Source: a virus. From it: 22,010 bases of DNA. The notes under the pieces are model-generated. The model had not been told where the DNA came from, searched no databases, and saw only the letters and a list, made by a program, of their open reading frames with translations. The DNA lies in IMG/VR virus record IMGVR_UViG_3300010883_000568, positions 1 through 22,010 of that record; one strand, 5' to 3'. Shown piece after piece: positions 1-22,010 of this stretch (the first letter of the stretch is position 1; every line of letters starts with the position of its first letter). Both the position numbers and the translations under genes were made by a program.

Positions 1-3000
1 CCGTGAAGACACTGCCAGACGATAGTCGTAAACGAGATAGAGATAATTACCCGAGCCGTTAAAATTAAAATTGCCAGAATAAAGACTAGCGCCATCAGTA
101 CCAGGCGTAACAGTTAAGTCGGTTGAATTAGAAAGTATAGTCTGTATGTTGGCAGGTGTATTAGAATACAACTGAGTAGTTCTCCAGTACTTTAAATTGT
201 TTTCAGCAGGTAAGAAATTAAACACATCGCCTGCTAGCTTTGCGCTTTGAACATATACCGTAGCCCCTTGAGGAGGGAAAACGCTGGAACCTTGGTCCCC
301 TGTAAGAAGTTGATACTGAGACACAACGGGATTTGTTCCCGCGTCAAATAAAACAAACTCAGAGTAAGTAGGGCTAGGCGTGCTACCGTCTTCAAATCTA
401 AACTGACTGTGTATCGTTTCGGTGTTCTGCCAATCTAAATTAAGCGATACCATTATCACGTTAATCTCAGTAGCGTCAGGACACTCTACGGTAATAGGCA
501 AGTTGTTGACGGCTCCTCCATTCGCTGTTATTACAACAGACACTGTATTGGGAAGAAGACCTGTTTTAGGGATAGTTAACGAACCCGCTCCCGTTTGGTT
601 TAAAGCTGAATAAGTAGTGCCAAAAGTAGCTACTACGTCAAAAGTTACTCCAGAGCCTAGAATAGGAGCGCCCCATACAATATCTATATCACCTACCGCA
701 CTACCTACATTGACGCAGAAAGAGTTTGTCGACCCAGCTTGTGGAATCGAAATAGTTTGAGGTATACCGCAGTTAATACACTTGGCTTCTACAGGTAGTA
801 ATATATCGTTAGAGGCCAATACATACTCATCCAGATACGGGTCAAACCCTCCTAGCTTTTGAGTGGTAAAGCTCTCGTTAAAGAGGTCTCTAAACCACGA
901 GCGCATACCTGCCTTGGAAATTACCGTTAGCGTTTCATTGTTAGCCGCTGTTCCTCGGAGTTGTATTACAGCGCCGCGTTTAGCATCGGTAAAGTATTTA
1001 TCGAAACCAAACTCAGCGTAGCTCTCTGGGTTAGCCGAGACACCGTACTCTTCGACTCTGGCAACTTGCTGGCCTAGGATAACAGGTGCGGCGGTCAAAA
1101 CGCTACCGCCTTGAGCGTCGGTCAGGACGTTCTTATTGACAACGACATAAGAGATACGGTCCTCTTGCAATACCAAGATGTCCGTCTCTCTAGCCACCAT
1201 CTTTTGAATAGGTCCGTACACGTCCTCTAAAGGCTTGAAATTAAGAAGCCCTAGGTTGAACTCATTGAGTTTGTTTACGTTACTCTCGTCGTTGTATATA
1301 CCACTGTACGTGATGTCAGCAAAGCGGTCGGCCTCTTTAAAGTCCTGAGCAGAAACCAACACAGCGCGTTCTCCTAACTGGAACGACTCGCCTACAGCGG
1401 AGTCCTCAATTTTATAGCTCTCTACACCGTTACCAAACGAATAGGAATTAAAGAAATCCAGGTCCACTACACCCTCTGTCGTAGCGTCTTGGTTGGTGAC
1501 GTTACCTTGGTGGTATCCACCCGTAATGGCATAGTTTTCGCTTCCTTCATAGAAGATATCGTCAGCTACTTCCGCTGGTTCAGTCTCAAAAACAATAAGA
1601 CTTCCAGGTTCTTGTATCGTTATATTTACTTTAGTTATAGATGACCTGTTGTCTAGGATTGCCCCCGTGGCACCAGAACCGTTCTGACACCTTAAGTATA
1701 ATCTCTGAGTAGACACAGGACCAGTATCATTACTAATGCTATAAAAGAAAATCTGATTGTTATTAGGCACAAACGGAATTATCGTGCCATTTGAACCAGC
1801 ATTAGCTGAATAAGAACCTGGATAGTACGTATTTGTATTTGGACCTCCGCTGTATTGGCATTCTACCTCACAATTCATTGCGTTAACAATTATCGAGCCC
1901 ACTCCTTCTCCGTCCCAAAACGCTTGAATGTCGGAATAAGATTGGCTAGCTGCAATTGTTTTTGTTATTCGACATAAAGAAGCTCCGTTATCTCCACCGC
2001 AAAAAATACCTAAATCGTCTCTTCTAAATTTAATTTTTATAGTAACAAGTGACCCTGATGGAACGCTAGCTCTAGTATATCCATCTGAAGCGTTACCAGT
2101 AAAACAAGGGTAATTTACTGTTGAGTATTGTAGGTAATTAGTTACTGTAGTTGTTGAGTCAGGATACCCAGGAGAATTAAAAATAGCTTCTGAAGTTATT
2201 TCACCTGCAACGGAATAACTAGACACCGTTGTGTCAATGCTAAATCCTTCAGCACGAAGTCGCATATAAAGTCCTGGTACCTCAAGGATATCAGATGAAC
2301 CTTGAAGAAGATGAAGAAAATTAGTAGGTTGAGAAACCTTGTCTAATACAACGGCTTTTGTTTCTGAATTTAAAATCCCAGTAGAATCTCGCTTAACAAT
2401 AAGCTCTGTTCCAGCCTCTATCAGCGCTTGGTCTTGACCGATAAGCCTAAACCAATAAGAAGTTGTACTAGGGTCGTAGTAGTATAAAGTTGAGTATATA
2501 GTTTCGTAAGCGCCCTTAGATTGCTTAAGGACAAACTTATATGTCTCCGCCCAGCTTGGGGCAGTCATATTGGTGGGGATAGTAACCCGTATCTTATTGA
2601 TATCGTTACTATTGATAGGCGGAACAAAGACAGCGTTTTGATTGCTCGTTAAAGCAGTCGTAGCCCTTTTATATTCATCCATATAGACAACTCCCACCTC
2701 GTAGTCTCGGTTACTATGAAGGCTTTTATTAGAAGACTGTTGCTGTAAAGAATACGAAACATTACTGACATTAAAATACTCAAAGTATTGATTGTCCCCC
2801 TCTAAAGTGTTGTTGTACTGAACGCCCAGTATGCTCACTCCAAACTCATCAGTTGAAAGCGGGTCAACATCTATAAAGACCCCTTGAGAAAGCGCCGTTA
2901 TGCCTGAGTTTACAGTTGTATATCCCGATGGTGCAATTAAAGAACAATTGAATACATCGGTAAACGTACTTCCGTCAGCACAGTTCGCTAAAGACTGGTA

Positions 3001-4428
3001 CGTCCCTGACCCGTTAGCTCCCAGTTGAGATTGGAACTCAGGACTGGTAACCATCTCATAAACACTGCCGTATGTTTGAGGAAGGGTATATACGAAAGAT
3101 ATGGTAAACGTAGGGTGGTTAGGTAGGCCCGCAGAGCCTGTGCCAGAGCCAGAAAAAGAAGCGTGAGTAACGGTAAAAGAAAAGCCAAAGACACCTCCTT
3201 GAGCTAATACAGGAGCTGTGGCAAAATCAATTACAGCTTTACCCGTAGTAGTTGGCGCAGCGTTTTGGTCAATACTGTAAGCCTGACTAGCCACATCTCC
3301 AGCCGCTTGGAATACCGATAGGTTCTCCGAGACCACCTTAGCGCTGTAGTTGGTATCTATACGAGCCCCCGATGCAATTGTCAAATTATATCCATCGATG
3401 TAGTTCCCATACATTAGGCGGTTGCCCATAATAGTCTGAGCTTGCGCCTTAAGCGGTACGTTATCGTAAAGCCTCGCTATCTCTGATTGAGGCAGTAAGG
3501 TGTAGATTTTCTGATTGGTAAAGTTGACCGTCTGAACGACGTTATTAGGCCAGCCCTCTTCGCTTTTTATATACTTCTGTATGACCCGAACTGTAGAGTC
3601 TGTACCGAGTTTAAAACAAAGGTCAATACCCACTACATCCTCACCTCCTGTATTGATACCCACAACAGCGGTGTTGTAGCGGTTAAGCATACCAGTATTA
3701 AAGTTGGTAGCGGGGTCTAAGCTAAAGGGGCTACTCTCAAAAGCTACATCGGTAAACTGAGATAACGCGCTATAGTCGTTATTGACATACTTATATCGGT
3801 ATGAAAACGACACGAAATGAGATTCTAAATAATCCTCCTCTCCAGGTATATCAATAAGCGTCAGCGTAGGAGCTGCGTTTGGTGGCCTTTTAATAACGTT
3901 TATATCGTCATTGGTAATCTGGTCAACGTCGGTTGCCGCTATAGGCTGAGGGTAGTTTTCAACTACGTTAATTTTACGAGGCGGATTGTAATCGTCCGTA
4001 AAAAACAGCAGGTCCTCTACCTTATTTACACCCGTTATTAAAAATGTAGGATTAAAATTAAGGACAGATGTACTGATAACGTGATAAGTCAACACCTCGT
4101 CTGTCGTTCTAAACGACGCAATTATATCAACGACCCCAGTTACGGATGCTGTATTAGCAGAGTCGTGAATAAACCAGTATATAGTTTCGTTAACGCCATC
4201 TTCGAACGCCCCAATACATCGAGCTGAATCACTTAAATCTACCCCCTGATACTGCAAGGTGGTCAAGCGAGTATTACCCTTAGAGTTTTCTACAGAACCT
4301 ACCTCCGAGCCTTCGGTAGAACCTAGCCTGACGTTTAAGGCATCGATATATTCTCCATTGGGGACAAGGCGTTCATCGACGCTCTTGTTCATACGCCCCT
4401 TGATAAAGTTCCTTTTGACGTTCCCCAT
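1..4428 (-). CDS. giant tail/stabilisation-type structural protein, 3' end outside window
   Basis: This is an unbroken reading frame of 1476 codons. I checked every in-frame triplet from 4428 to 1 and found no stop, and the gene continues past the left edge. Residues about 12-52 read RMNKSVDERLVPNGEY...SENSKGN-like (seen: DERLVPNGEY, ALNVRLGSTEGSEVGS), a start I recognise from large structural proteins of Bacteroidota podoviruses; crAss-like phages call the counterpart stabilisation protein (P22 gp10-like). Around residues 1144-1157 is KYFTDAKRGAV, then a G-F-D-P-Y-L-D-E-Y stretch, also typical of these proteins. Residues about 1215-1320 form a beta-rich, Ig-like stretch with Cys1217, Cys1220, Cys1238 and Cys1316. 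The ATG overlaps the preceding stop by one base (TAATG), so translation is probably coupled. Role by inference: a tail hub or tail-needle-region protein in a short-tailed virion. The family assignment rests on memory of homologues. Confidence 0.85.
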   Translation of the reverse strand, partial: MGNVKRNFIKGRMNKSVDERLVPNGEYIDALNVRLGSTEGSEVGSVENSKGNTRLTTLQYQGVDLSDSARCIGAFEDGVNETIYWFIHDSANTASVTGVVDIIASFRTTDEVLTYHVISTSVLNFNPTFLITGVNKVEDLLFFTDDYNPPRKINVVENYPQPIAATDVDQITNDDINVIKRPPNAAPTLTLIDIPGEEDYLESHFVSFSYRYKYVNNDYSALSQFTDVAFESSPFSLDPATNFNTGMLNRYNTAVVGINTGGEDVVGIDLCFKLGTDSTVRVIQKYIKSEEGWPNNVVQTVNFTNQKIYTLLPQSEIARLYDNVPLKAQAQTIMGNRLMYGNYIDGYNLTIASGARIDTNYSAKVVSENLSVFQAAGDVASQAYSIDQNAAPTTTGKAVIDFATAPVLAQGGVFGFSFTVTHASFSGSGTGSAGLPNHPTFTISFVYTLPQTYGSVYEMVTSPEFQSQLGANGSGTYQSLANCADGSTFTDVFNCSLIAPSGYTTVNSGITALSQGVFIDVDPLSTDEFGVSILGVQYNNTLEGDNQYFEYFNVSNVSYSLQQQSSNKSLHSNRDYEVGVVYMDEYKRATTALTSNQNAVFVPPINSNDINKIRVTIPTNMTAPSWAETYKFVLKQSKGAYETIYSTLYYYDPSTTSYWFRLIGQDQALIEAGTELIVKRDSTGILNSETKAVVLDKVSQPTNFLHLLQGSSDILEVPGLYMRLRAEGFSIDTTVSSYSVAGEITSEAIFNSPGYPDSTTTVTNYLQYSTVNYPCFTGNASDGYTRASVPSGSLVTIKIKFRRDDLGIFCGGDNGASLCRITKTIAASQSYSDIQAFWDGEGVGSIIVNAMNCEVECQYSGGPNTNTYYPGSYSANAGSNGTIIPFVPNNNQIFFYSISNDTGPVSTQRLYLRCQNGSGATGAILDNRSSITKVNITIQEPGSLIVFETEPAEVADDIFYEGSENYAITGGYHQGNVTNQDATTEGVVDLDFFNSYSFGNGVESYKIEDSAVGESFQLGERAVLVSAQDFKEADRFADITYSGIYNDESNVNKLNEFNLGLLNFKPLEDVYGPIQKMVARETDILVLQEDRISYVVVNKNVLTDAQGGSVLTAAPVILGQQVARVEEYGVSANPESYAEFGFDKYFTDAKRGAVIQLRGTAANNETLTVISKAGMRSWFRDLFNESFTTQKLGGFDPYLDEYVLASNDILLPVEAKCINCGIPQTISIPQAGSTNSFCVNVGSAVGDIDIVWGAPILGSGVTFDVVATFGTTYSALNQTGAGSLTIPKTGLLPNTVSVVITANGGAVNNLPITVECPDATEINVIMVSLNLDWQNTETIHSQFRFEDGSTPSPTYSEFVLFDAGTNPVVSQYQLLTGDQGSSVFPPQGATVYVQSAKLAGDVFNFLPAENNLKYWRTTQLYSNTPANIQTILSNSTDLTVTPGTDGASLYSGNFNFNGSGNYLYLVYDYRLAVSSR

Positions 4429-5354
4429 TATTTAATCCACTTATTCTGTCCACGCAAGTTCATCAATAATCGGCCAGGATGGATATTGCTGATACGGATT
4501 TTTGCATTTCGTAAAAGAGCGGTCTTAGACTTTCGATAACGGTTAACTATATACTCCTGAGTTCCCATCTTAGAGTTGAGGATAGCATAAGAGATATACG
4601 AGTAGATAAAGTCCTCAAACAATTTATTGACCGTAACTAACGAGTCATCGCCTCCCTCCATACCATCGCTAACGTATTCTAGTATACAGCTCTGACCAGA
4701 CATAGCCGAGCTAAAGTTTATAACGCCCGCTTTGGGGTCGATACGGAACGTAGGATTGGCATTAGCGGTTTCAGTGTTTAGACCAAACGCAGCGCCTCCA
4801 ATTGGGAAATCAAAATACCACAAGCCATCAATACACCAGCCTTCGTTTCCGTCGTAAGGGCTGTTCTCGTTGATGTACATTGACCTTAAAGTGCTGTTAA
4901 GCCTTTCGGTATCAATAGGTGAGAACTCTGGCTTTAAAGCGGCTCCTGTCTCGTCAAAAAGAATTCTATTGTTTGAGTCTTGTAGGTACGCCTGTGCGCT
5001 AGTGATTTGGATGTTTTCCGTTAAAGGGAATACCGTTCCATTTCTAAACAAAGAAACTCGAACCCAGTTTACATAATCGCTAGGAAGGACAAAGCGAAGG
5101 TCCTCAGAGACATTAAGCTGCAATACCTTAATCTCTTTGAACGCATCGTAGTTAAGCTCCTGTATGGCCCTCTTAGCGTGAAATAGAATCTTATAGCGAG
5201 ACTTCTCGTTTACCAACTCGTTATTACCGCTATACATAAGCTGGTAGTTGGTTACGATATCTCGTAAGCTGACATATTGATACGACCCCCAATTGGCATC
5301 CTCTGGAGAAGCCCCTGCGTTTTCGTAGTATTGATACTGAGTAAGGTATGCCAT
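4428..5354 (-). CDS. neck/ring protein, P22 gp4-like (tail tubular type)
   Basis: This 308-residue protein begins MAYLTQYQYYENA. Residues about 27-85 include YVSLRDIVTNYQLMY, LFHAKRAIQELNYDAF and FVLPSDYVNWVRVSLF, the pattern I associate with the protein called tail tubular or P22 gp4-like in crAss-like phages. Such proteins form a ring below the portal that closes the filled head and holds the tail. The C-terminus is basic (RYRKSKTALLRNAKIRISNIHPGR), which could face DNA in the channel; that is inference. Its ATG lies one base after the upstream stop and its stop overlaps the next ATG, so it sits in the middle of a three-gene tail operon. No signal peptide or membrane segment is visible. The family call is fairly secure by context and sequence feel but was not checked by search. 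Confidence 0.75.
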   Translation of the reverse strand: MAYLTQYQYYENAGASPEDANWGSYQYVSLRDIVTNYQLMYSGNNELVNEKSRYKILFHAKRAIQELNYDAFKEIKVLQLNVSEDLRFVLPSDYVNWVRVSLFRNGTVFPLTENIQITSAQAYLQDSNNRILFDETGAALKPEFSPIDTERLNSTLRSMYINENSPYDGNEGWCIDGLWYFDFPIGGAAFGLNTETANANPTFRIDPKAGVINFSSAMSGQSCILEYVSDGMEGGDDSLVTVNKLFEDFIYSYISYAILNSKMGTQEYIVNRYRKSKTALLRNAKIRISNIHPGRLLMNLRGQNKWIK

Positions 5355-5355
5355 A

Positions 5356-6042
5356 TTACTTGCTTTGCTGGTCGGCGATTTGTTCTTGACTTACCGCATA
5401 ATTTACCACATCAATCTCACGGATAGAAACTCCTGCGTACTGTAAAATTTTATTTACCAAACGAGGCTCGTCGTCATCAGGAAGCTCAAAGTCTTGGTAG
5501 TCGGCTTGGCTTTGGTCAAATACAGGTTCGCCTGCCGTAAGTATTGAGTACGTCCAGTTTGGAGGAAGGGGATATCTGATATACTGAATCGTACCTGACG
5601 TGATGGTCGCGGGATACGCTGTAGCTGTATTTCCGTTTTGAACAAAAGCGGGGAAGCCAGTCGTAGGAGCCGTAAGAGATGACGCCAACAGTAAGTTAAT
5701 CTTAGAGTTAGACACCTGCTCTAATTCATAGTTGCTACCTGTAGGAAGTATTTTATTGATTAAATAATAATCAGCGGGAAGAGCAAATGAGTTTGTGGTA
5801 AAATTCACAATTGTAGAGAAGTCATCGATAACCTCCTCTAAAGAGCGCAATACATCAGCGTAGCCCGTTCCTGACTGGCGGACATTCTCTTTATTAATCT
5901 GGTAATTATAATCGTTAAAGTACTCATCGAATATCTCCAGCTGCGCTTGTTTAGCGTACAGATTAAAATCTGCTGGCGAGAGATAGCCAAAATTGTTCTT
6001 ATTCAGTATCGATAATACCGTGCTTCTGACCGATTCTATCAT
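5356..6042 (-). CDS. head-tail connector / ring protein
   Basis: This 228-residue protein is the first gene after a strong terminator and a candidate promoter. The N-terminal ~70 residues look helical (LSPADFNLYAKQAQLEIFDEYFNDYNYQINKENVR), followed by a beta-rich central part (FALPADYYLINKIL, TIQYIRYPLPPNWTY) and an acidic, Q-rich C-terminus. This shape and position match the small ring or adaptor proteins encoded between capsid genes and the gp4-like tail protein in Bacteroidota podoviruses. By inference it docks to the portal or to the next ring and extends the neck. Translation starts at ATG 6042; no Shine-Dalgarno motif precedes it. It could also be a tail completion protein; only position and general shape support the call. 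Confidence 0.6.
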   Translation of the reverse strand: MIESVRSTVLSILNKNNFGYLSPADFNLYAKQAQLEIFDEYFNDYNYQINKENVRQSGTGYADVLRSLEEVIDDFSTIVNFTTNSFALPADYYLINKILPTGSNYELEQVSNSKINLLLASSLTAPTTGFPAFVQNGNTATAYPATITSGTIQYIRYPLPPNWTYSILTAGEPVFDQSQADYQDFELPDDDEPRLVNKILQYAGVSIREIDVVNYAVSQEQIADQQSK

Positions 6043-6430: not shown

Positions 6431-6745
6431 TTATGCGGTTCCAATCGCTACGTTAGAAATTGTAGCAGGCACTCGATTAGTAATATCCATTGTAGCTTCA
6501 GACCATTTTGATTGGGCTGACTCTACGATGAGCTGTTGAATCACGTCTATCATAGACCCGAGAGCATACGGAGCCGACTCGCTAGCGTGAGTAACCGTAA
6601 TAACGTCTAAAGTCGTTGTAGCGGCTCCGTTAGCATAATACAAATCAGTGGTAGTAGCGCCGCCTGTGTTAACCCAAAGAAGATTGTCTAGCGGAATAAG
6701 TAGATTACCGTAACTAGCGGTTTCTACAGTGAAAAATGAAGCCAT
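6431..6745 (-). CDS. small structural protein, paralogue of the gene at 6123-6419
   Basis: This 104-residue hypothetical protein begins MASFFTVETASYGN. It is rich in Thr, Ala and Gly (NTGGATTTDLYYANGAATTT), then has VITVTHASES and a helix around residues 68-82. The likeness to the downstream 98-residue product suggests an old tandem duplication. A TATCTTTG box lies 27 bases upstream of its ATG, so it may start its own transcript. As a short beta-rich protein near the capsid gene it may decorate the head, or be a minor neck component; nothing in the sequence decides this. Confidence 0.7.
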   Translation of the reverse strand: MASFFTVETASYGNLLIPLDNLLWVNTGGATTTDLYYANGAATTTLDVITVTHASESAPYALGSMIDVIQQLIVESAQSKWSEATMDITNRVPATISNVAIGTA

Positions 6746-7599: not shown

Positions 7600-9051
7600 T
7601 TAGTCACGGAACAAGAAGAAGTTGTTGGCACCTAAAGTGCAAACAGCTCGTTCAGACAAGAAGTTAACTTGCATCTTATCGATAGAGCTATTGACTGCTC
7701 CACCAGCAGAACCAGTAATCCAAGTCTTGTAACGACGGTCTTCAGTTTCTGAAGCGCGGTACCGAACGTGAAGGAAAGGTCGCTTAGCATTCTTACCCAT
7801 AATCTGGTCGTATACAGTTGTTGAGCCAGCTGGCACCAATAAACCATCTACCTTACCCGAATTAAGACCACCACGCATAGTTGGGTCGTTCAAGTACTTC
7901 CAGTCAGACTTATAGAAGTCATAGCCACGACGGAAACCACGGAAACCTAGGTTCAACGCCATCTCTTCGTCATTGTCAAAGAGACCGTAAGAAGTACCAC
8001 CAGCTCCGTAAGAGTTCTGAGCAGCCAACATATCATCAATAGCAAATGAGAAGTCACGGTTAACGAAGATTACATTCTCTTCGATAGAACCCTGCTTATC
8101 CAATCGCTGGATAATAGTGTCAAACTCAGCCAATGTAGTTGGGATACCTTGGAATACATTTCCTCGAGTATTTACTACATAGAAGATTCCGTCAGAACCA
8201 GCATCTGTACTTCCAGCAGCGCCACCAGTAGCAGAATTAGCAGCAGGGCTAAGCTCAGCCAATGCTCCAGAACCAGCTACAGCAGGTACAGCTTCAATCA
8301 TAGCAGTCTCCAAGTAGTCGTCAAAACGAAGACGTGTCTCGTGCTCAGACTTCAAATACCATAAGTATCCAGTAGCTCCGTTCTCGGTAGTTACTTCAAC
8401 CCAACCGATTTGAGCCATATCAGAACCATTAACACTATAAGTGTCCTTCAAGATAATAGGCTTATTCTCAAAGAAGTTGTCTTCAGCTTCTAAAGAACCA
8501 ACCATTGTATCTGTTCCTTTAGCAAACTCAGAACCGTATACAAATACAGTACAAGTAGTGTTTTGAGGAAAGTTTTGAGTAGTCTCGTAATACTTTACCT
8601 TAAAGGTAAAAGTACCACCTGCTCCAGTAGGAGTGCTAGAACCTTCAGTTACAACGGCTTTATTGTTCAATGTTGATGCGCCTGCGTTAGCAGAAATCAT
8701 AACGGTTTGACCAACTCGCAAAGCCGCTGTTGAAACACCAGCAGGTAGAGTTACAGTAAACGTGTGCTCAGCAGCAGCAGAAGGTGCTGTGTCAGCATTA
8801 CAGTTTGTATACTTAGTATGCAAACGTCCTTGCTCAGCCCATTTGATAAGGTCAGAGTTAGAAGGCATCTCCGCTCCTACCATACGTAAGAATCCAGAAA
8901 CAGTACGGTTACCGTAACGCTCGAATTCTTTCTCGTAGGTATCAGGAAGATACTGGTTTAAGAAATTAAAATTAGTAATGTAGTTCGTTTGAAGAGCTAC
9001 TTTACTTGGTGCTGGATTCAAATCGAATCCAGGGGATGTTAATACAGCCAT
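7600..9051 (-). CDS. major capsid protein
   Basis: This 483-residue protein begins MAVLTSPGFDLNPAPSK. Residues about 24-80 contain NYITNFNFLNQYLPDTYEKE, ERYGNRTVSGFLRM and PSNSDLIKWAEQGRLHTKY, which I recognise as the N-terminal region of major capsid proteins of Bacteroidota podoviruses. The middle holds an Ala/Gly/Thr-rich beta stretch (SAAAEHTFTVTLPAGV) and a Gly/Ala/Ser-rich loop around residues 263-283. Length and place, after the portal and a scaffold-like gene and before a terminator, fit an HK97-fold shell protein; the fold itself is inferred. The A-rich leader directly before the ATG (eight A, no Shine-Dalgarno motif) suits a highly expressed Bacteroidota phage gene. Confidence 0.88.
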   Translation of the reverse strand: MAVLTSPGFDLNPAPSKVALQTNYITNFNFLNQYLPDTYEKEFERYGNRTVSGFLRMVGAEMPSNSDLIKWAEQGRLHTKYTNCNADTAPSAAAEHTFTVTLPAGVSTAALRVGQTVMISANAGASTLNNKAVVTEGSSTPTGAGGTFTFKVKYYETTQNFPQNTTCTVFVYGSEFAKGTDTMVGSLEAEDNFFENKPIILKDTYSVNGSDMAQIGWVEVTTENGATGYLWYLKSEHETRLRFDDYLETAMIEAVPAVAGSGALAELSPAANSATGGAAGSTDAGSDGIFYVVNTRGNVFQGIPTTLAEFDTIIQRLDKQGSIEENVIFVNRDFSFAIDDMLAAQNSYGAGGTSYGLFDNDEEMALNLGFRGFRRGYDFYKSDWKYLNDPTMRGGLNSGKVDGLLVPAGSTTVYDQIMGKNAKRPFLHVRYRASETEDRRYKTWITGSAGGAVNSSIDKMQVNFLSERAVCTLGANNFFLFRD

Positions 9052-12630: not shown

Positions 12631-14876
12631 TATTTAACTAGTTCGCTGATGTTTCCACGGTTGTTGTATCTAGCAAAGGTAACAGATATTTTCGATTGCT
12701 TTTCTTCGGGTTGATATACGTGTTTTTGATTCGCCATAATTGCCAATCCCGAACTGATAGTAGCATCAAATTTTGTCCTGTTATTGATATCAAATTTAGC
12801 CCAGTCTTCTAAGGTTCGAGTAAACGGCATCACTCCGATATCCCCTGCCGAACGATAAGTTCCTTCTAAATCTATACCGATATGTTTTTCAATATACGAT
12901 TCTATAGCAGAAGCGTGAGACTGCTTGACGTCCTCAGAACTATTGGGTATACCTCCAAGTTCTTTCTCTGTTTTAGAGAGTTTATTAAACTTCTTGTCGG
13001 GACGGTTCATAGAAAACTTTCGATAGCCTCTATGTTTAAAATGATAGAGAAGCCTTGGTTTATTATTCTCCGTTAGGATAGGCATACCATAGAAAATACA
13101 GGCCATTAGTACCTCTTCAAAAAATATCTCTGCCGTTTGAGGACGTGCTACATACTCTAGAAAAAACTCACTGCTCGGGGCGTCATCCATATTAAACTTA
13201 GTCATCCCGTGAAGAGAACCATTAGAACCTCTTCCGCCGACTACGCCTGATATATCATAAGGGTCACATCCAAACGACCCTATATGTTCATTGCCAGGAA
13301 ATTTCATCCCGTTGCGCGTAATAACATTGTTTTGTAAATGGGCAGGAGGTATCCATCCCAACACAAATCTACCGTTACGCTCTGGAGTCCAAATTACCTT
13401 GGTGTCTTTCTCTCCGTTGAGCCAATGAAACGAACCACGAGTAAGGTAATGCTCCTTAATCATCGTATCGTTATAGTCTATCTGCTGGTATATCTTGGTA
13501 AGATTAAATAGCGACTGTTTGCTTTCATCTCTAAAAGCGTGAGACTCCGTCCTAGGGAACTGCCTATAGAATTCGTTAAGAGCGTCAGGGTCATTTTTTA
13601 ATGACGCCACTTCATTCTCCCAATAGTCAATAGCACCAATTTTAATAACACTTCCGTCAATGCCTTTAGATGCAATTGCAGGAGTCCTAAAAATTGGCAT
13701 CCCATAGATATCTATATAACCCTCAAAATTCCATTCCATAGGAATAAAGAGACTGTACATACCGCTTTTAGTTTGCCCGTTAGCATTGCGGTTGCTGACG
13801 TCAGATTGCGAAAATAAAGTCTTATAGTTACCACCCCCTTTACTCAGCGCATTAGAAGTAGAACCCATCATACACTTACCTATAATGCGGCTACCTAGTC
13901 GCAGGCAAGTTTTAGTAACGCGCCAGTTATTGAGGATGTTCTCTGGCTTCTCCCACTTCCCGCTCTCATCGTGTACCAGCAATAGGAGCTTCTCTCCGTC
14001 ATAGCTGTTGTCTGATGTATTCTTCCAATCTATAGTTGTGTCAAGACCATCTAACTCGTTATCCTCATCCAAGTACATATTGCGCTTGGTAATTTTAGAG
14101 GCGGGGATACGGTAAGCTAGCTCGGTCTTTGGCTTGTCCATACCGTCCTGGATAGGCTTAAAGAAAAACGGATAGTTTGCCGATATAGGAACGACCTTAT
14201 CCGTAAACATCTTCTTAGCGTCAGAACCCGTTTTAGAAAGTATACCTACACGCGCGTCTTTAGCTAACGTACCGATATTAACGCATTCTGAAGAACCCAT
14301 AAAAGAAAATCCTGAACGACGAATCTTTAGGTAGCACATACCAAAACTTCGGGCGTCGGCCTTACACGCTTCCCAAAATATATAGAATATGCGATTGGCT
14401 TCTCTAAAGTCAGGAAGTCCTACGTCGATTTTAGTCCATTGAAGGTAGCTATAATGAGACCCCGTTACATACGTAGACTTACCGTTATTCATAAACCACA
14501 CGCCGTTCTCTCTACGGTTAAACTCCTCTTCTATAAAATCTACCCACTTATCTTTAAACTCGGTAGGCATTTCATTCCACTGAAAGATAGTCTTGATACG
14601 AGAGAGTTCTTTAGGATATTGAAGCGGTTGCCAATACTGCTCTTTTTTATTCTTACTACGCTGTATCGGCTCTTTATTTTTAGCGGGAAGAGCAATACGA
14701 AGTCCCTGGATATCCACGACATCTCCTACAGTTCCGTCTTTGGATATAACGACAAAATCATACTTTTCATTGTAGCCATACTCCCAGGTTTTACCTCTAT
14801 TTTTTGCCGCCATCGCCGCAGGAGGGACGATATCAGTAAGGTAGGTAAGAAGGTTATTTTGACCGTCGTTCTGCAA
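12630..14876 (-). CDS. terL: terminase large subunit
   Basis: This 748-residue packaging motor has an ATPase half with an unusual Walker A-like loop KIRRSGFSFMGSSE (residues 184-197), Walker B KLLLLVHDESGKW (296-308; Asp303, Glu304) and a coupling-like GST (338-340). The nuclease half has GSFGCDPYDISG (533-544) with Asp538 as the likely first metal ligand, acidic residues around 583-588, and FDATISSGLAIMA (703-715) with Asp704 as the likely last ligand. Together this is a complete ATPase plus RuvC/RNase H-like nuclease. The longest frame starts at TTG 14876 and overlaps the upstream gene by 23 bases; the first ATG in frame is at 14813 (residue 22, MAAKNRGKTW). Residues 1-21 read like protein, so the longer form is kept, but the true start is undecided. 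Confidence 0.92.
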   Translation of the reverse strand: MQNDGQNNLLTYLTDIVPPAAMAAKNRGKTWEYGYNEKYDFVVISKDGTVGDVVDIQGLRIALPAKNKEPIQRSKNKKEQYWQPLQYPKELSRIKTIFQWNEMPTEFKDKWVDFIEEEFNRRENGVWFMNNGKSTYVTGSHYSYLQWTKIDVGLPDFREANRIFYIFWEACKADARSFGMCYLKIRRSGFSFMGSSECVNIGTLAKDARVGILSKTGSDAKKMFTDKVVPISANYPFFFKPIQDGMDKPKTELAYRIPASKITKRNMYLDEDNELDGLDTTIDWKNTSDNSYDGEKLLLLVHDESGKWEKPENILNNWRVTKTCLRLGSRIIGKCMMGSTSNALSKGGGNYKTLFSQSDVSNRNANGQTKSGMYSLFIPMEWNFEGYIDIYGMPIFRTPAIASKGIDGSVIKIGAIDYWENEVASLKNDPDALNEFYRQFPRTESHAFRDESKQSLFNLTKIYQQIDYNDTMIKEHYLTRGSFHWLNGEKDTKVIWTPERNGRFVLGWIPPAHLQNNVITRNGMKFPGNEHIGSFGCDPYDISGVVGGRGSNGSLHGMTKFNMDDAPSSEFFLEYVARPQTAEIFFEEVLMACIFYGMPILTENNKPRLLYHFKHRGYRKFSMNRPDKKFNKLSKTEKELGGIPNSSEDVKQSHASAIESYIEKHIGIDLEGTYRSAGDIGVMPFTRTLEDWAKFDINNRTKFDATISSGLAIMANQKHVYQPEEKQSKISVTFARYNNRGNISELVK

Positions 14877-15138
14877 AGCCTTGTTTGGTATTGGTAGATG
14901 AGTCGCCGCGTTTTTCAGCTGCTTCTAAATTTTCTTTCTCTTGTTCAATTCGATTGAGTATCTCAAGAGCATCGAATATAGCTAGTTTTTTAGTAGCCGC
15001 TGCGTTCTTAAGCCTATCGGCTGCTAGCTCGTCTTCGATATCAGGCTTTATAATATCCTCTTTAGCGACTTTAATAAGCTGCTCTACAGCTCTATGGCCT
15101 GCTTTTATAATCTCTAGTTTAAGCTCTTTTATATTCAT
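14854..15138 (-). CDS. small helical protein, candidate terminase small subunit
   Basis: This 94-residue protein is nearly all helix, rich in Lys, Glu, Ala and Ile (MNIKELKLEIIKAGHRAVEQ, LAADRLKNAAATKKLAIFDA), with a polar disordered tail (EKRGDSSTNTKQGF). Its stop lies inside the start region of the large terminase gene, and its ATG overlaps the previous stop as ATGA, so it is translationally coupled on both sides. Small terminases are short, helical, oligomeric DNA-recognition proteins encoded immediately before terL, which fits. No helix-turn-helix is obvious, so the call rests on size, shape and place. A packaging or assembly cofactor is the alternative. Confidence 0.5.
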   Translation of the reverse strand: MNIKELKLEIIKAGHRAVEQLIKVAKEDIIKPDIEDELAADRLKNAAATKKLAIFDALEILNRIEQEKENLEAAEKRGDSSTNTKQGFAERRSK

Positions 15139-15698
15139 AAGACCATCGTTATGTTCTCAGTATACATACGATAAAGCTTTTCCCCGTCGACGGTAAACTC
15201 GTATTCACTTTGCGGGGTAAAAGAAATCTCATCGCCTTCTTTAACTCCTAGCTTTTCTAACTGCTCGTTGCCATAGCGAAGAGTCCCAAAGAGAGGTTCT
15301 TCCTTAACGAACTTCTTTATCCACGATTCTTTTTCTTCTACAGGCTTTACAAAACAGTACTTGCTGTGGGCTTTCCACTGGTCGTCTTTTTTGTACAAGA
15401 AGAATTGCTCTTCTTCGATAAAAAATAGCTGGTCTTTAAAGTAGCTACGCCCACTTTTTTGAACGCCTTTCATATCGTAATAGTATTTAAATACATTATG
15501 ATGGACGAGTAGGGTATCTCCTTTAGAAATAGGACCTGTATAAGAAATGGGGGTTGCCTCTACTATAGCATAACGATTAGAAAACCTATGGTCTTCTTGA
15601 GAGGAGCTTACGATGAATTCTACATCACCCATCTCTCTTATGTTATCGTACCTGGTATCGTTAAGTGGCTGAACTATAAATGCGTCTGGTGACCTCAT
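15135..15698 (-). CDS. possible GroES-like (gp31-type) co-chaperonin, two-domain
   Basis: This 187-residue protein appears to hold two related beta-rich halves. The first has RYAIVEATPISYTGPISKGD then TLLVHHNVFKYY (residues ~42-73), which resembles the GroES pattern of a small beta barrel with vkxGDxVl followed by a mobile region. The second, near the C-terminus, has LFGTLRYGNEQLEKLGVKEG DEISF...(positions ~136-160) and YEFTVDGEKLYRMYTENI, again GroES-like, with KEGD and a terminal 'LYRM..xxI' strand. Known biology: several phages encode a GroES substitute (T4 gp31) needed to fold the capsid protein. Inference: this protein may do the same. It overlaps both neighbours by 1-4 bases. The alternative is an unrelated beta-rich structural protein. 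Confidence 0.4.
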   Translation of the reverse strand: MRSPDAFIVQPLNDTRYDNIREMGDVEFIVSSSQEDHRFSNRYAIVEATPISYTGPISKGDTLLVHHNVFKYYYDMKGVQKSGRSYFKDQLFFIEEEQFFLYKKDDQWKAHSKYCFVKPVEEKESWIKKFVKEEPLFGTLRYGNEQLEKLGVKEGDEISFTPQSEYEFTVDGEKLYRMYTENITMVL

Positions 15699-16514: not shown

Positions 16515-16979
16515 TCAATCTCTATTTTTCCTTACAGCACTCCCAAAGAAGTAACCAAAGATACTTAAGACGATACCCTCAGTAATTCCGATGAGGTGAA
16601 TCCAAACCTCTTTATTGGGTTCTGGAATGGTTAAATAGACAATGGCATATATAATAAAAGCGAAAGAACTCAAGCCAATTATACCCGTTAGGTTGAACAT
16701 AAGGTCAAAATTGCTAGTCTTAGAAATCTCTACCTCGCGCTTACGTGCGGAGTCCCTATCCGACACCTCTAATGCATAAAGCTCTTTAAGATGATTGTGG
16801 CCCTGTTCTTTGTCAGCAGGGTCCATCTTAGGGTCGTCGTCTATAAGTCGGCTTATGATGCCTAAAACGCCCGCGTCAGGGACTACATCGCCTACAACAC
16901 GTAAGATATCGGGAGCTTTGGATTTAAGCCACCCTGCCATCTTGGTATCGCGGAACTTTTTCTTTTCGTTTACGCCCAT
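16515..16979 (-). CDS. holin-like two-TM membrane protein
   Basis: This 154-residue protein has a soluble N-terminal half (WLKSKAPDILRVVGDVVPDA) and the phrase SDRDSARKREVEISK (residues 73-87), common in phage membrane proteins annotated as holin family. Two hydrophobic segments follow, about 94-117 and 126-147, the second ending in the positive tail AVRKNRD. A gene directly downstream of the amidase with this shape most likely makes the inner-membrane hole that lets the amidase reach peptidoglycan. The ATG lies inside the last codons of the amidase gene (10-base overlap). A second in-frame ATG at 16940 (MAGWLKSK) might give a shorter form. Function is inferred from shape and neighbour. Confidence 0.6.
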   Translation of the reverse strand: MGVNEKKKFRDTKMAGWLKSKAPDILRVVGDVVPDAGVLGIISRLIDDDPKMDPADKEQGHNHLKELYALEVSDRDSARKREVEISKTSNFDLMFNLTGIIGLSSFAFIIYAIVYLTIPEPNKEVWIHLIGITEGIVLSIFGYFFGSAVRKNRD

Positions 16980-17377
16980 CGGTACTCTGCTGTTGCGTCA
17001 AATGAAGGGCAAGCTTTATTAGAAAAATCGTTATGAGAGTGAACCTCTGCATTGCAATGCAATCGTTTAAGAGTACATATAAGCATCGTAAGAGAATCGA
17101 CCTGCTCATCGGTCCTAGTGTCCATAGGTTCGCCGTCTTTATCAAGACCTCCTATATAGCAAATACCAATAGAGCCCTCGTTATGGCCTTTACAATGAGC
17201 TCCAGTAAGTTTTAAATCTCTGCCGTATTCAATTACCCCGTCTAGGTTAATAACAAAGTGGTAGCCTATATCAGAGAACCCTCGAGCTTTATGCCATCGG
17301 CGGATATCGTCCGCAAAAAACTCTTGCTCTTCTTTTGTAGCCGAGCAATGGACAATAATTTTATTGATATCTCTCAT
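16970..17377 (-). CDS. N-acetylmuramoyl-L-alanine amidase, T7-lysozyme type endolysin
   Basis: This 135-residue amidase_2-family enzyme cuts the bond between N-acetylmuramic acid and L-alanine in peptidoglycan. It aligns by eye along nearly its whole length with T7 lysozyme: IIVHCSATK (residues 7-15), IRRWHKARGFSDIGYHFVIN (25-44), GAHCKGHNEGSIGICYIGG (59-77) and KACPSFD (121-127). The zinc ligands are His10, His115 and Cys123, with Tyr39 and Lys121 as the catalytic counterparts of T7 Tyr46 and Lys128. All are present, so it should be active. It has no signal peptide, so it needs a holin, which the next gene may supply. In T7 the same protein also restrains the phage RNA polymerase; nothing here tests that. 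Its ATG overlaps the preceding stop by 3 bases (ATGA). Confidence 0.93.
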   Translation of the reverse strand: MRDINKIIVHCSATKEEQEFFADDIRRWHKARGFSDIGYHFVINLDGVIEYGRDLKLTGAHCKGHNEGSIGICYIGGLDKDGEPMDTRTDEQVDSLTMLICTLKRLHCNAEVHSHNDFSNKACPSFDATAEYRWA

Positions 17378-17505: not shown

Positions 17506-17506
17506 T

Positions 17507-18312: not shown

Positions 18313-18318
18313 ATTGTG

Positions 18319-18326
18319 TAAAGATA
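18319..18326 (-). promoter_or_regulatory. -7-like element TATCTTTA
   Basis: The minus strand reads TATCTTTA, one mismatch from TAnnTTTG, only 7 bases before ATG 18312. GTTATCTT followed by CACAA is shared with the spacer before the gene starting at 10155. If it is a promoter the mRNA would be nearly leaderless; the closeness makes this uncertain. Confidence 0.2.
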
Positions 18327-18332
18327 ACGATA

Positions 18333-19256
18333 TTAATAGATGACGTAGAAATTATTGATGTTGGTTTCAATTCCTGTTAGGTTGTTTGTTTCGTCTATTG
18401 GATACACAATAAATTCTTGCATCGTTCCAGACCAAGTAATACCGTTATTAATATACGCGCCAATCCTCATTTGTGTCGTATCAAGACTCCCTGTCAGAAG
18501 CGCCAAGGCAATCGGATACTCGACTGTATTCTTGAAAACTCGAAAGCCATTCGATGTGGTACCTGCTGTAACGCTGAATAAATTTTGATTTGTGTCGTTT
18601 ACAGTATAAGTTATAGGTGACCTGCTACCGTAATAAAACCTGTCAGAGTTTGAGCCTGGTGAATAATGCCAAATCCTATTTGTGTTCGTACCTCCCAAAA
18701 CAAATTGCATTGCGGCGTTTGAAGTATTGTTACTAGCGCAAACTGTGCTTATTGTTATATCGCCTTGGTCTAAATTAGGATAGCTAATTAAGAAATAGTC
18801 ACTAGAGCTCCTAATGAAATTAATCGCAGGCTTACCGTTCTCCGTTGTCACAGCACCCGTTGACCCATCGTAAATCTTAGGTCGGTTGGGAGACGAAACT
18901 TGAGTAGCGTTGTTCCCACTACCACTCTGGTCGTACCAAGTCTGTACGAACACGTCATTACTGCCTCCATAAGCAATAATAGCAGCCGTGTCCAACTCTC
19001 CGTTGCTATCGAAGCCTACATCAAGAGTGGCTCCACCTACGGTGTCCTGTACTTTAATAGCGCTACCCGTATAGGTAGAGCTTAGACGGCGTAAGCTATG
19101 TCCAGCTCTCGCACCTGGGTAGGTATCTAAAAGTAAAGAACCGCCCGTAGCTGGCTTATCTATAAGATTGATGGACCCTAAAGCTGAGACATCAACTCCG
19201 TCAAAATTAGATATATTGGCGAAATCAATTCCGCTTACTTTTTGAATAGTCGCCAT
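18333..19256 (-). CDS. host-contact protein with arabinofuranosidase-B-like / ConA-like module
   Basis: This 307-residue protein has a short virion-type N-terminus (MATIQKVSGIDFANISNFDG), then residues ~47-145 with the hallmark order AGHSLRRLSSTYTGSAIKVQ, LDVGFDSNGELDTAAIIAYG, VQTWYDQSGSGNNATQ and RPKIYDGSTGAV...ENGKPAI. This resembles the catalytic-domain family of alpha-L-arabinofuranosidase B (GH54), which has a ConA-like lectin/glucanase fold. A divergent beta-rich section follows, and the protein ends in TGIETNINNFYVIY. In phages such modules sit on tail appendages and bind or cleave surface glycans; whether this one is enzymatic cannot be told from the sequence. The same module occurs twice in the gene at the right edge. 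Confidence 0.7.
   Translation of the reverse strand: MATIQKVSGIDFANISNFDGVDVSALGSINLIDKPATGGSLLLDTYPGARAGHSLRRLSSTYTGSAIKVQDTVGGATLDVGFDSNGELDTAAIIAYGGSNDVFVQTWYDQSGSGNNATQVSSPNRPKIYDGSTGAVTTENGKPAINFIRSSSDYFLISYPNLDQGDITISTVCASNNTSNAAMQFVLGGTNTNRIWHYSPGSNSDRFYYGSRSPITYTVNDTNQNLFSVTAGTTSNGFRVFKNTVEYPIALALLTGSLDTTQMRIGAYINNGITWSGTMQEFIVYPIDETNNLTGIETNINNFYVIY
18355..18371 (-). repeat. 17-base trailer repeat, copy c
   Basis: TTGATGTTGGTTTCAAT (plus strand) is identical at 18355-18371, 20534-20550 and 21356-21372. It encodes ETNIN within the module ending GIETNIN(D/N)FY(S/V)IY that closes each ArabFuran-like module. Confidence 0.85.
18826..19136 (-). repeat. module repeat copy 3 (ArabFuran-like coding repeat)
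   Basis: The stretch encodes the conserved part from YPGARAGHSLRRL to ENGKPAI. It is clearly similar at DNA level to 21014-21318 and to 21775-22010; for example the 19 bases CTCTGGTCGTACCAAGTCT (plus strand) are identical in all three copies. The direct orientation could allow homologous exchange. Confidence 0.85.
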
Positions 19257-19268
19257 ACTAAGACATTT

Positions 19269-19811: not shown

Positions 19812-19820
19812 AATATTAAT

Positions 19821-20510
19821 TTAAGGAATTACAGTCCAATCTTTTGAAGGGTCAAAATACATCTCTTTGTTATTTATTTTATACCCTATTACCCTAACGA
19901 CATTTCCTGATGCGGTAGGACGAGTTGATGTTGCACCTCCATCGGTAGTGTCTAAGTAAACAGGTGAACCATTGCTGCCTGTTAAAGTACTTGCCTGTAC
20001 AATATTACCCTTTATAATCATTCCAACTGAACCGACTGAGTACGCGAACGCTGTCCAAGCCAAGAAACCTGTGGATACATTGCTTTCTGAAGTTGCATTT
20101 GATGGAGTAACTGTTACTCCCTCGATAACATAGAATGTTGCGGGTGTTAAAGTAACAGTAGTAATACTCCTATACGACTCTACTCCCCTTCCAAAATATG
20201 TGGGAGTTGTGTCGTCTGATGATGCGTAATTATTTTGTAGCAGATACGTTATAGAACTGAAGTTCATTGTATTGGTAGACGAATCGTATTTTATATTAAA
20301 AAAACACTTCAACTCATCTTCCGTATCCGAACAAAACACCATACGCCCATCACCTTGAAAATCTACTGTAATATCTCCGCCGCCAATAAGGTCTGACACT
20401 TCTTGAAGAGTGTAAGCTTCTCTACCTGCGTTAGCTTGAGCCGAGCCTCGGTTTACGGTGTCTACACCTGCGGCTACAGTATGTATCTTATCTGTGAGTT
20501 TAATTGCCAT
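19821..20510 (-). CDS. appendage/structural protein sharing C-terminal domain with its neighbour
   Basis: The 229-residue form starting MAIKLTDKIHTVAAGVDTVN is preferred: its ATG at 20510 lies one base after the stop of the upstream gene. A longer frame back to ATG 20549 would overlap that gene by 38 bases and adds 13 unremarkable residues. Residues ~20-45 (RGSAQANAGREAYTLQEVSD) are a likely anchor. A central domain includes FQGDGRMVFCSDTEDELKCF and TLTPATFYVIEGVTVTPSN. The last ~75 residues are the beta domain shared with the 19269-19811 product. No catalytic motif was seen. Role by context: tail or head appendage working with the adjacent lectin-type proteins. Confidence 0.65.
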   Translation of the reverse strand: MAIKLTDKIHTVAAGVDTVNRGSAQANAGREAYTLQEVSDLIGGGDITVDFQGDGRMVFCSDTEDELKCFFNIKYDSSTNTMNFSSITYLLQNNYASSDDTTPTYFGRGVESYRSITTVTLTPATFYVIEGVTVTPSNATSESNVSTGFLAWTAFAYSVGSVGMIIKGNIVQASTLTGSNGSPVYLDTTDGGATSTRPTASGNVVRVIGYKINNKEMYFDPSKDWTVIP

Positions 20511-20511
20511 C

Positions 20512-22010
20512 TTAATAAATCGAATAAAAGTCGTTGATGTTGGTTTCAATACCTAATTCATTTCCACTATATGCAGCATAAATGATTGATTCCTGCACCC
20601 GTTTAGATGTACCACCCTGTAAGCTTGGATGTTTGCCGATAAAATAAAGGTCTGCGGTACCTGTGTTTCCTACGTCTGTATTCGTGCCGACAGATGCCCC
20701 ATTGAGTCGAGCGTGTCGCGTCGTGCCATCATATGTACCTCCGTTAAGAACCTGAGTGGCTGCTACTATTGTACCGCCAACTGCCACTTCAAAGTTTGTA
20801 GCATTAGAATGATACCGAATTTGAGCGTTTGATGAATTTGTACCAATCATCACACCCCTAGTTGCTCCACCAATTTGAACCCCTGAAGCGTATTGGTTTC
20901 CAACATTTATTGTATCGTAAGATGCCACGCAATAAAGCTCGTTTTCAATAACCCCCGTAAACGCGGTGGCGCTGGTGCTTTGTAAAATCTGACTGTTTGA
21001 AGTAAATTCTACCGCAGGCTTCCCGTTCTCCGTTATCACCACTCCCGTTGTACCGTCATAAATCTTTGGACGGTCAGCAGACGTAGCTTGAGTTGCGTTA
21101 TTACTATTGCCGCTCTGGTCGTACCAAGTCTCTACGAAGACGTCGTTAGAGCCTCCGTAAGAAATAATAGCAGAAGTATCTAACTCTCCGTTGCTATCGA
21201 AACCTACATCTAGCGTAGACCCGCCTACGGTGTCCTGTACCTTAATAGCAAAACCTGTGTAGCTCGTGTTGAGCTTACGCAAAGAGTAACCCGCAGAAGC
21301 ATTAGGATATAAATTTAAAAGAAGAGGCGTAGGCCCGTAAATGCTGTAGAAATCGTTGATGTTGGTTTCAATGCCTGTGCGGTTGGTGGATTGGTCGGAA
21401 TTATAAATAATAAACTCTTGTCCGAAAGTGTACATTTTCTGTCCGCTTCGAGTCAATCCAAAGCCGCCCGTCCAAGTGCTGAAATCACCCGAAACGGTTA
21501 GAACGCTTTGCGATTGCAGCGCGTCCCAAATATCGTTACGCGTTGCTCCAATTGAAGTTCCGTTACTGAATTGCGATAAGCTACCAATTCCCGCGCTACT
21601 TGCTCCTGTGTTGCCGTTAATTCCTAAGCCGTAATATTCGACAACAGAACCAACATCGATTCCAATCCTTGGTAATGCTTCCAAGCCGTTCGATTGAAGG
21701 ACGTTGAAAATATAGGTTGTCGAGGCTCCGTTCCAAGTCGTGTCTGCCATAAAATCTCCCGCCTTAAAATCAAGCGAAGGTTTGCCGTTGTTAATCACCA
21801 CCGCACCCGTTGTACCATCATAAATCTTTGGACGGTTAGCAGACGTAGCTTGAGTAGAGTTATTACCATTGCCACTCTGGTCGTACCAAGTCTCTACAAA
21901 GACATCATTAACACCTCCGTAAGCGGCAATAGCAGAAGTGTCTAACTCTCTGTTACTATCAAAACCTACATCAAGAGTCGCTCCACCTACGTTGTCCTGT
22001 ACTTTAATAG
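20512..22010 (-). CDS. tail fibre/appendage with tandem arabinofuranosidase-B-like modules, 5' end outside window
   Basis: The frame is open to the right edge: bases 22010-21802 translate in frame as IKVQDNVGGATLDVGFDSNR then LDTSAIAAYGG, VETWYDQSGNGNN and RPKIYDGTTGAV, so the ATG at 21801 is internal. About 499 codons are visible. There are two modules in tandem. Each has the GH54-like conserved part (AGYSLRKLNTSYTGFAIKVQ, LDVGFDSNGELDTSAIISYG, WYDQSGNSNNATQ, ENGKPAVEF), a variable beta-rich part and the ending GIETNINDFYSIY; the first module is cut by the window edge. The repeat build and the position next to short appendage genes suggest a host-recognition fibre or adhesin that binds or trims surface glycan. 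Enzymatic activity is not established. Confidence 0.75.
   Translation of the reverse strand, partial: IKVQDNVGGATLDVGFDSNRELDTSAIAAYGGVNDVFVETWYDQSGNGNNSTQATSANRPKIYDGTTGAVVINNGKPSLDFKAGDFMADTTWNGASTTYIFNVLQSNGLEALPRIGIDVGSVVEYYGLGINGNTGASSAGIGSLSQFSNGTSIGATRNDIWDALQSQSVLTVSGDFSTWTGGFGLTRSGQKMYTFGQEFIIYNSDQSTNRTGIETNINDFYSIYGPTPLLLNLYPNASAGYSLRKLNTSYTGFAIKVQDTVGGSTLDVGFDSNGELDTSAIISYGGSNDVFVETWYDQSGNSNNATQATSADRPKIYDGTTGVVITENGKPAVEFTSNSQILQSTSATAFTGVIENELYCVASYDTINVGNQYASGVQIGGATRGVMIGTNSSNAQIRYHSNATNFEVAVGGTIVAATQVLNGGTYDGTTRHARLNGASVGTNTDVGNTGTADLYFIGKHPSLQGGTSKRVQESIIYAAYSGNELGIETNINDFYSIY
20534..20550 (-). repeat. 17-base trailer repeat, copy b
   Basis: Identical to copies at 18355-18371 and 21356-21372. 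It closes the second module and ends 20 bases before the gene's stop. Confidence 0.85.
21014..21318 (-). repeat. module repeat copy 2 (ArabFuran-like coding repeat)
   Basis: The middle copy encodes the stretch from LYPNASAGYSLRKL to ENGKPAVEF. It is a direct repeat with copies at 18826-19136 and 21775-22010 and is close to copy 1 at base level, including the identical run around WYDQSG and around RPKIYDGTTG. Confidence 0.85.
21356..21372 (-). repeat. 17-base trailer repeat, copy a
   Basis: This is the internal copy closing the first module and marking the junction (FYSIYGPTPLLLNLYPNAS) to the second module. It supports a tandem duplication of whole module units. Confidence 0.85.
21775..22010 (-). 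repeat. module repeat copy 1, truncated by window edge
   Basis: This copy encodes IKVQDNVGGATLDVGF through INNGKPSLDF. The conserved part continues beyond the right end. It differs from copy 2 mainly by scattered single-base changes, consistent with an old tandem duplication. Confidence 0.8.

Follow-up and report, generated by a model that had tools for sequence, protein, structure and literature searches.

Joint absence of GATC, CATG and CCGG from a 22 kb environmental phage sequence, and changing sets of missing words among its relatives

We have analyzed the IMG/VR virus record IMGVR_UViG_3300010883_000568 in its entirety (22,010 bases; this whole stretch of DNA is called the window below) and found that three palindromic tetranucleotides, GATC, CATG and CCGG, do not occur in it at all, on either strand (1..22010). 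The same loss was found in its closest relatives, and other members of this virus group are missing other sets of words. Very probably, every GATC, CATG and CCGG was removed because the ancestors of this phage repeatedly infected hosts with orthodox Type II restriction enzymes of these three specificities, which we take to be enzymes of the kinds MboI/DpnII/Sau3AI (GATC), NlaIII (CATG) and HpaII/MspI (CCGG).

Three palindromes missing from the window

A preliminary description of this sequence, made by eye, had reported the absence of GATC against some 86 expected copies. The computed count confirmed the absence (0 in 22,010 bases). The expected number was right in order of magnitude but slightly high, since base composition alone gives about 81 copies, a maximal-order (order 2) Markov model 69.3 and the codon shuffles described below 74.1; by the Markov check too, the observed count is thus far from expectation. 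The loss that had been noticed was real but incomplete, as CATG and CCGG, with order 2 Markov expectations of 35.5 and 37.4 respectively, had been overlooked and are also at zero. Each of the three words was absent from every one of four 5.5 kb blocks. They are the only absent tetranucleotides (3 of 256) and all of them belong to the 16 palindromes, something that combinatorics puts at a chance of about 2e-4. After these three zeros, the lowest ratio of observed to Markov counts was that of GCGA (28 copies vs. 48 expected), and the remaining 13 tetranucleotide palindromes were found at 0.65–1.14 of their expectation. Taking as avoidance an observed/expected ratio below 0.1 at an expectation of at least 15, GATC, CATG and CCGG are all avoided in the window; the missing words are palindromic Type II targets, and words that are not such targets are not missing.

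Codon bias had been named in the preliminary description as a possible trivial cause. We shuffled synonymous codons 200 times within the 22 coding sequences (21,348 coding bases), preserving the proteins and the codon usage. The shuffled sequences contained 74.1 ± 6.8 GATC (minimum 54), 38.3 ± 4.5 CATG (minimum 26) and 29.5 ± 4.7 CCGG (minimum 17), so that codon usage does not produce the observed zeros. In these shuffles sites for the lost words were expected in all three codon phases, yet the loss is complete. For example, C is the last base of 1,476 out of 7,094 preceding codons, and it stands before an internal Met codon in 0 out of 129 cases. The biggest departures among the other 13 palindromes were those of AGCT (128 vs. 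98.0, standard deviation 8.2) and TGCA (47 vs. 70.7, standard deviation 6.3), about 3.7 standard deviations each and nowhere near zero counts.

Nothing comparable was found among 665 palindromes of 5, 6 and 7 bases with at least 6 expected copies and with none of the three words inside them; the lowest were CGTACG (0 vs. 6.4 expected) and AACGTT (1 vs. 9.5 expected). The loss can be described without recourse to longer or degenerate forms of these words, and the window does contain CCWGG (26 copies), GANTC (60), GGWCC (18) and CTNAG (75).

The same and other losses among related phages

The terminase large subunit gene of the window (12630..14876, minus strand; phrog_6681, E 4.1e-178) was used as query for relatives and as the basis of a tree. 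Of at least 599 viral contigs matched by terminase we took the 80 best, so the sample lies near the window, plus nine contigs filed under bacterial or archaeal assemblies (L082–L090). The scored set comprises 90 terminase-bearing records (the window, L002–L089 and MW202828), L090 being omitted from the tree for its partial terminase. MW202828, a 60,850-base "Podoviridae sp." from Manatee Spring, is the nearest named phage by terminase (73.8% identity). Near-duplicates were kept (e.g., L002 of the window, and identical terminases), so that record counts are non-independent. Whole contigs were counted, minus the last 425 to 2,321 bases in L028, L013, L044 and L042, and for the cultured phages elemoA, phi13:2, phi38:1, Gundel_1 and Calle_3 the counts cover only the first 50 kb.

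The preliminary description had proposed a comparison with related phages, and the loss of GATC proved common to the six closest relatives and follows clades. L002 (99% terminase identity) and L003, L004, L005 and L007 (88 to 89%) have zero copies of all three words. The remaining one, L006 (26.9 kb), has no GATC and keeps two CATG (49 expected) and one CCGG (57 expected), at contig positions 6461, 7854 and 13645. In the sister L008 (80% terminase identity) the counts were 0 of 33 expected for GATC, 1 of 28 for CATG and 11 of 27 for CCGG; L008 and L006 may represent intermediate states of loss. In L010 and L024, which fall in the same open region of the tree, the three words reach 0.52 to 0.86 of their expected counts. 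In the simplest order of events GATC and CATG, whose loss is common to L008, would have disappeared first and CCGG probably later. Like the window, MW202828 is devoid of GATC (0/193) and CCGG (0/26); unlike it, it has kept CATG, with 47 sites in the aligned genes alone.

Sites were compared one by one after codon-wise alignment of 16 of the window's 22 coding sequences with the best match in each of six relatives (L008, L010, L024, MW202828, L081 and L011). Their aligned genes contain 72 GATC, 103 CATG and 43 CCGG, 218 sites of which the window keeps none. This figure follows from the zero counts, and its information lies only in the contrast with control palindromes (ACGT, AGCT, GTAC, TGCA and TCGA), of which the window retains 156 out of 986; at that rate about 34 of the 218 should have stayed. 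The difference involved no amino acid change at 102 of the lost sites and an amino acid change at 116 (316 and 514 among the controls). We also tabulated the single-base replacements, in counts that are unpolarised and pooled across all the non-independent relatives. Those of GATC were mixed, mainly GACC, GTTC, GGTC and GAGC, with C-to-T products in 30 of 698 cases. Similarly, CCGG was replaced mainly by CCTG, CTGG, CAGG, CCCG and CGGG, the C-to-T products accounting for 59 of 219. In the case of CATG the commonest replacement was the C-to-T product TATG (290 of 748, and 27 more were CATA).

Over the whole group the missing sets are near all-or-none, follow clades and switch between them. Among the 1,048 pairs of record and palindrome with an expectation of at least 15, 83 had ratios below 0.1 (74 of them exactly zero), only 16 lay between 0.1 and 0.4, and 850 were between 0.6 and 1.2. 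At least one palindrome was missing (ratio below 0.1, expectation of at least 6) in 70 of the 90 records, and three or four in 20 of them. The numbers of state changes on the terminase tree were compared with 100 shuffles of the states, excluding intermediate ratios (0.1–0.4) and records in which fewer than 6 sites were expected. The tree was built by a quick procedure; 22 of its 81 inner branches are left open, some branches are long and no root is inferred. GATC, missing from 34 of the 85 rows scored for it, required 8 changes (shuffled mean 27.1, minimum 20); CATG, absent in 24 of 88, required 6 (mean 21.4, minimum 17); and CCGG, absent in 18 of 50, required 8 (mean 15.2, minimum 10). CTAG gave 7 changes (mean 24.4, minimum 18) and the asymmetric CCAG 5 (mean 20.0, minimum 17). 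The counts for GCGC (4 changes vs. a shuffled minimum of 4), GGCC (5 vs. 4) and CGCG (4 vs. 5) show little because too few records lack these words.

Whole contigs illustrate how the missing words vary from phage to phage. L013 (60 kb counted) has lost CTAG (0/167), CCGG (0/25), GCGC (0/31) and CGCG (0/13); in L011 (58.8 kb) the sole eliminated word is CATG (0/138); L060 (52 kb) has no GATC (0/167); and L076 (63.6 kb) lacks GATC (0/174), GGCC (0/29) and CCAG (0/226), with CATG at 13/172 and CTAG at 18/156. Even a fairly close pair, L056 and L058 (path of 0.18 changes per site), differed in CTAG (0/28 vs. 140/145) and CCAG (0/54 vs. 180/287). The set of elemoA differs again from that of the window, with CATG at 3/121, GGCC at 0/19, CGCG at 0/13, CCGG at 0/10 and GATC at 40/150. 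Seven palindromes are ever lost in the 90 records, GATC, CATG, CCGG, CTAG, CGCG, GCGC and GGCC, all of them ending in G or C; that is seven of the eight G/C-ended palindromes and none of the eight A/T-ended ones. AGCT and TCGA, which are A/T-ended, are known enzyme targets.

CCAG (CTGG on the other strand) was scored absent in 22 of 89 records. It is at zero in the whole contigs of L081 (0/266), L076, L074 (0/165) and L009 (0/150) and nearly gone from MW202828 (4/288, over L133 and L134). We know of no standard enzyme with exactly CCAG as its target. Further zero words in L076, L074, L058, L081, L040, phi38:1, Gundel_1 and phi13:2 were GGTGA, CACTG, CCAGG, GGACC, CATATG, GATATC, TGTACA, GGGAC, CTTAAG and GAATTC, which presumably resemble targets of Type II or IIS enzymes.

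Restriction by the hosts and the rival explanations

If the hosts of the ancestors carried orthodox Type II enzymes cutting GATC, CATG and CCGG, presumably as three separate systems, a DNA stretch without sites would escape cutting and loss of sites would be selected, synonymous codon choice being sufficient for full removal; the rest of the genome would then be expected to look like the window. Restriction pressure is the best supported explanation because only palindromes are lost, the loss is complete across codon phases, the missing sets follow clades and switch, and the right nuclease families exist, though rarely, in a candidate host order. The preliminary description had already proposed restriction, and this part of its reading is supported; any account centred on GATC alone, be it through mismatch repair or DpnI, falls short because two other words were lost with GATC.

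This kind of mechanism is known, site loss being an established phage strategy and its principle textbook knowledge. In the survey of Rusinov et al. (2018; PMC6286503), about one tenth of viral genomes show complete or almost complete elimination, which mostly concerns orthodox Type II sites; it is commoner in non-temperate double-stranded DNA phages, and coliphages with a hydroxymethylase avoid fewer sites than relatives without it. The window resembles the surveyed cases in that palindromic orthodox Type II sites fall below an observed/expected ratio of 0.1, and differs from them in having three tetranucleotides exactly at zero together, in a set that switches among relatives. Sites other than orthodox Type II ones were eliminated in less than 0.5% according to the same survey (PMC6286503), whereas some relatives here are fully devoid of the asymmetric CCAG. 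In this group of viruses the probable escape by site loss stands out for its completeness and changeability. Among the papers listed by our searches, limited to open-licence PMC papers, none dealt with the elimination of sites in these phages. The window is a clean case of the joint elimination of three restriction sites from a single environmental phage; also worth recording are the switching, near all-or-none character of the sets and the full elimination of CCAG in some relatives. Since the complete sets differ among related phages, missing words could be used to read out the restriction enzymes of uncultured hosts, and phage–host predictions could be tested against them.

Some evidence from the host side bears on this explanation. 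In Baltic Flavobacterium phages, weaker plating on one strain was tied by the authors to a missing phage methyltransferase (PMC7077304), suggesting that phages of the Flavobacterium host group are subject to restriction. In the Bacteroides fragilis group the methylated motifs vary by strain, with GATC in all five species studied (PMC10333322); by analogy, such strain-wise differences could produce switching pressure, if hosts of this kind are used. As the preliminary description had proposed, we searched candidate hosts, taking 296 genomes from the order of a Flavobacterium metagenome-assembled genome (MAG) and one or two nuclease families per word. GATC-type families were found but are rare, with MutH/Sau3AI in 8 genomes and DpnII in one over the cut-off (and one below); ICEA was found in one, and HpaII in 8, three of them partial or with stops. 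Sau3AI is taken here as a member of the MutH family and ICEA1 as a homologue of NlaIII. These families are a supply in the candidate order and not a link to the phage. The contigs L082–L090 gave no host either; they are filed in MAGs of unrelated bacteria and archaea, probably through binning errors, and because the MAG titles disagree (Aliivibrio, Woesearchaeota, Desulfobacteraceae, Pseudomonadales, Polaribacter, Flavobacterium and others) no host was assigned.

Modification genes were searched with methyltransferase profiles, MethyltransfD12 over 37 of the 80 viral loci and the other families over 24 loci plus six phage records; the four families proved to be almost missing from the relatives. 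MethyltransfD12 matched in 2 of the 37 records (L011 and L019), both under the cut-off. Among the 30 phage records, N6_N4_Mtase (PF01555) exceeded its cut-off only in phi13:2 and DNA_methylase (PF00145) only in Gundel_1, with weak matches in L011 and L019, and the Dam family was found in none. The two MethyltransfD12 matches were rejected as Dam-like genes; they are frames of 218 and 222 amino acids with a PPC motif, which we read as cytosine-methyltransferase-like, and stay below the PF00145 cut-off. These frames lie at L092:1498-2154 (L011) and L091:1507-2175 (L019), in L011 a second PPC-containing frame adjoins the first, and both phages avoid CATG but not GATC. As to the lack of protective modification that the preliminary description had offered as an alternative, no methyltransferase was matched among the 22 proteins of the window by Pfam, PHROGs or both, the window being probably about one third of a genome. 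The two phages with matches over the cut-off, phi13:2 and Gundel_1, have no tetranucleotide palindrome missing in the 50 kb counted, and in phi13:2 an ArdA anti-restriction gene is annotated as well. That avoidance takes the place of modification fits these data loosely, with two cases only.

Several observations weigh against restriction by orthodox Type II enzymes as the whole account. Methyltransferase carriers lose six-base palindromes as well (GAATTC 0/19 in phi13:2; GAATTC 0/16 and CTTAAG 0/20 in Gundel_1), and phages without a methyltransferase may also lack few words, as in L045 and L050, where ACGTG is the only word missing at the threshold and no methyltransferase was matched. On the host side, the nuclease families are rare (1 to 8 of 296), families for all three words together were found in 0 of the 296 genomes with one or two families searched per word, and G123 alone combines two, having a MutH-like gene plus an HpaII-like sequence split into two pieces, of which one contains stops. 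The candidate order was itself guessed from cultured phages with a terminase identity of 44% or less, and no DpnII was found in 7 MAGs that contain a related phage contig, out of 8 such MAGs found. Finally, the loss of CCAG in relatives is left unexplained by orthodox palindromic enzymes. A broader reading, which we offer tentatively and hold to be possible rather than probable, is that the set of missing words is a heritable, near all-or-none and switching record of the restriction enzymes of the hosts, in which CCAG would point to an uncharacterised host system, different from Type III or Type IIG systems, that makes each non-palindromic four-base site costly.

Among the alternatives to orthodox Type II restriction, methyl-directed nucleases (DpnI-like, Type IIM/IV) could select against GATC in DNA methylated in a previous host. 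We regard this as quite improbable, although GATC is also a Type IIM target and, where the hosts have the corresponding enzymes, 45 of 46 phages carry it at less than 0.8 of the expected count; avoidance of Type IIM/IV sites is weak overall, both points being taken from the same survey (PMC6286503). Such selection needs regular passage through methylating hosts. Besides, we know of no methyl-directed counterpart for CATG, which counts against it.

Escape from methyl-directed mismatch repair or other Dam-dependent processes of the host is very improbable as the cause. It has been discussed for phiX174, which has no GATC (about 20 expected) and whose mutation rate is lowered when GATC is restored (PMC5014478). 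The window is like phiX174 in its zero, but phiX174 is a 5.4 kb coliphage and the window a fragment of a double-stranded DNA phage that is also without CATG and CCGG, and mismatch repair leaves these two losses in the same DNA unexplained; GATC is not lost alone. There are also relatives without CATG or CTAG that keep GATC, such as L011 and L040. To our knowledge the hosts of the cultured relatives, Flavobacterium, Cellulophaga and Tenacibaculum, do not use MutH/Dam repair, which is a further point against it.

Highly unlikely too is that the phages encode nucleases of these specificities that attack host or rival DNA, being themselves immune for lack of sites. HNH endonuclease genes are annotated in MW202828, elemoA and Gundel_1, and clustering of the reading frames of 16 long contigs gave partial associations, some clusters being confined to contigs that miss a word, for example a 587-amino acid frame in 3 of 6 GATC-free contigs and 0 of 10 others, a 122-amino acid frame in 3 of 5 CATG-free contigs and 0 of 11 others and, for CTAG, two small frames in 4 of 5 contigs free of the word and 0 of 10 others. 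However, the CTAG carriers are near neighbours on the tree, and among the top three clusters listed for each of eight words none was present in all the carriers and absent from all the others, in a comparison of low power. Among the 22 window proteins none except the terminase matched a nuclease family (Pfam, PHROGs or both), a weak test since profiles recognise restriction nucleases poorly.

Codon usage, dinucleotide bias or mutational decay by deamination of methylated sites have a practically negligible probability as the source of the losses. Composition can under-represent short words, and methyl-cytosine is possible in CCGG and GATC, but the nulls expect 36 to 69 (Markov) and 30 to 74 copies (codon shuffles) against zero, which rules out codon bias and Markov composition. 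Deamination was rejected for GATC and CCGG because their replacements are mixed rather than C-to-T; CATG is less clear, its replacements being led by TATG, a product also expected from codon third positions preceding Met. An artefact of assembly or of a restriction-digested library, in favour of which nothing was found, has next to no probability, as L002–L007, from six different IMG sample numbers, repeat the triple loss (near-complete in L006), other contigs miss other words and the window has long intact reading frames.

Genes and affiliation of the window

The recognisable genes of the window are all on the minus strand, and ARAGORN found no tRNA in it. The terminase, portal and virion genes are homologous and in the same order as in MW202828; the window is therefore probably a fragment of about one third of a podovirus-type genome of ~60 kb, to judge from sequence comparison. 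The cultured relatives by terminase are the Flavobacterium elemo phages (44% identity) and phages of Cellulophaga, Tenacibaculum and Maribacter; among the matches listed, the homologous terminases of the elemovirus and of the Cellulophaga and Tenacibaculum podoviruses are 33 to 44% identical.

Following the window from its start, a large virion structural protein, open at the window edge (1..4428; phrog_14478, E 1.9e-219), is followed by two more virion structural proteins (4428..5354, phrog_13977, E 7e-48; 5356..6042, phrog_14543, E 2.8e-41) and by a fourth (7600..9051; phrog_13704, E 1.7e-105) whose position suggests that it may be the major capsid protein. The portal protein (10195..12630; phrog_6547, E 1.7e-150) adjoins the terminase. 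Past the terminase there is a gene for a GroES-like co-chaperonin family protein (15135..15698; phrog_13932, E 2.9e-21); in elemoA, phi13:2 and Calle_3 a GroES-like gene also lies beside or near the terminase. An N-acetylmuramoyl-L-alanine amidase, i.e., an endolysin, is encoded at 16970..17377 (PF01510, E 9.7e-14; phrog_822). Two further virion structural proteins (18333..19256, E 9.8e-15; 20512..21801, E 2.9e-13) each carry a copy of the phrog_10356 domain, which suggests a duplicated tail-fibre-like module.

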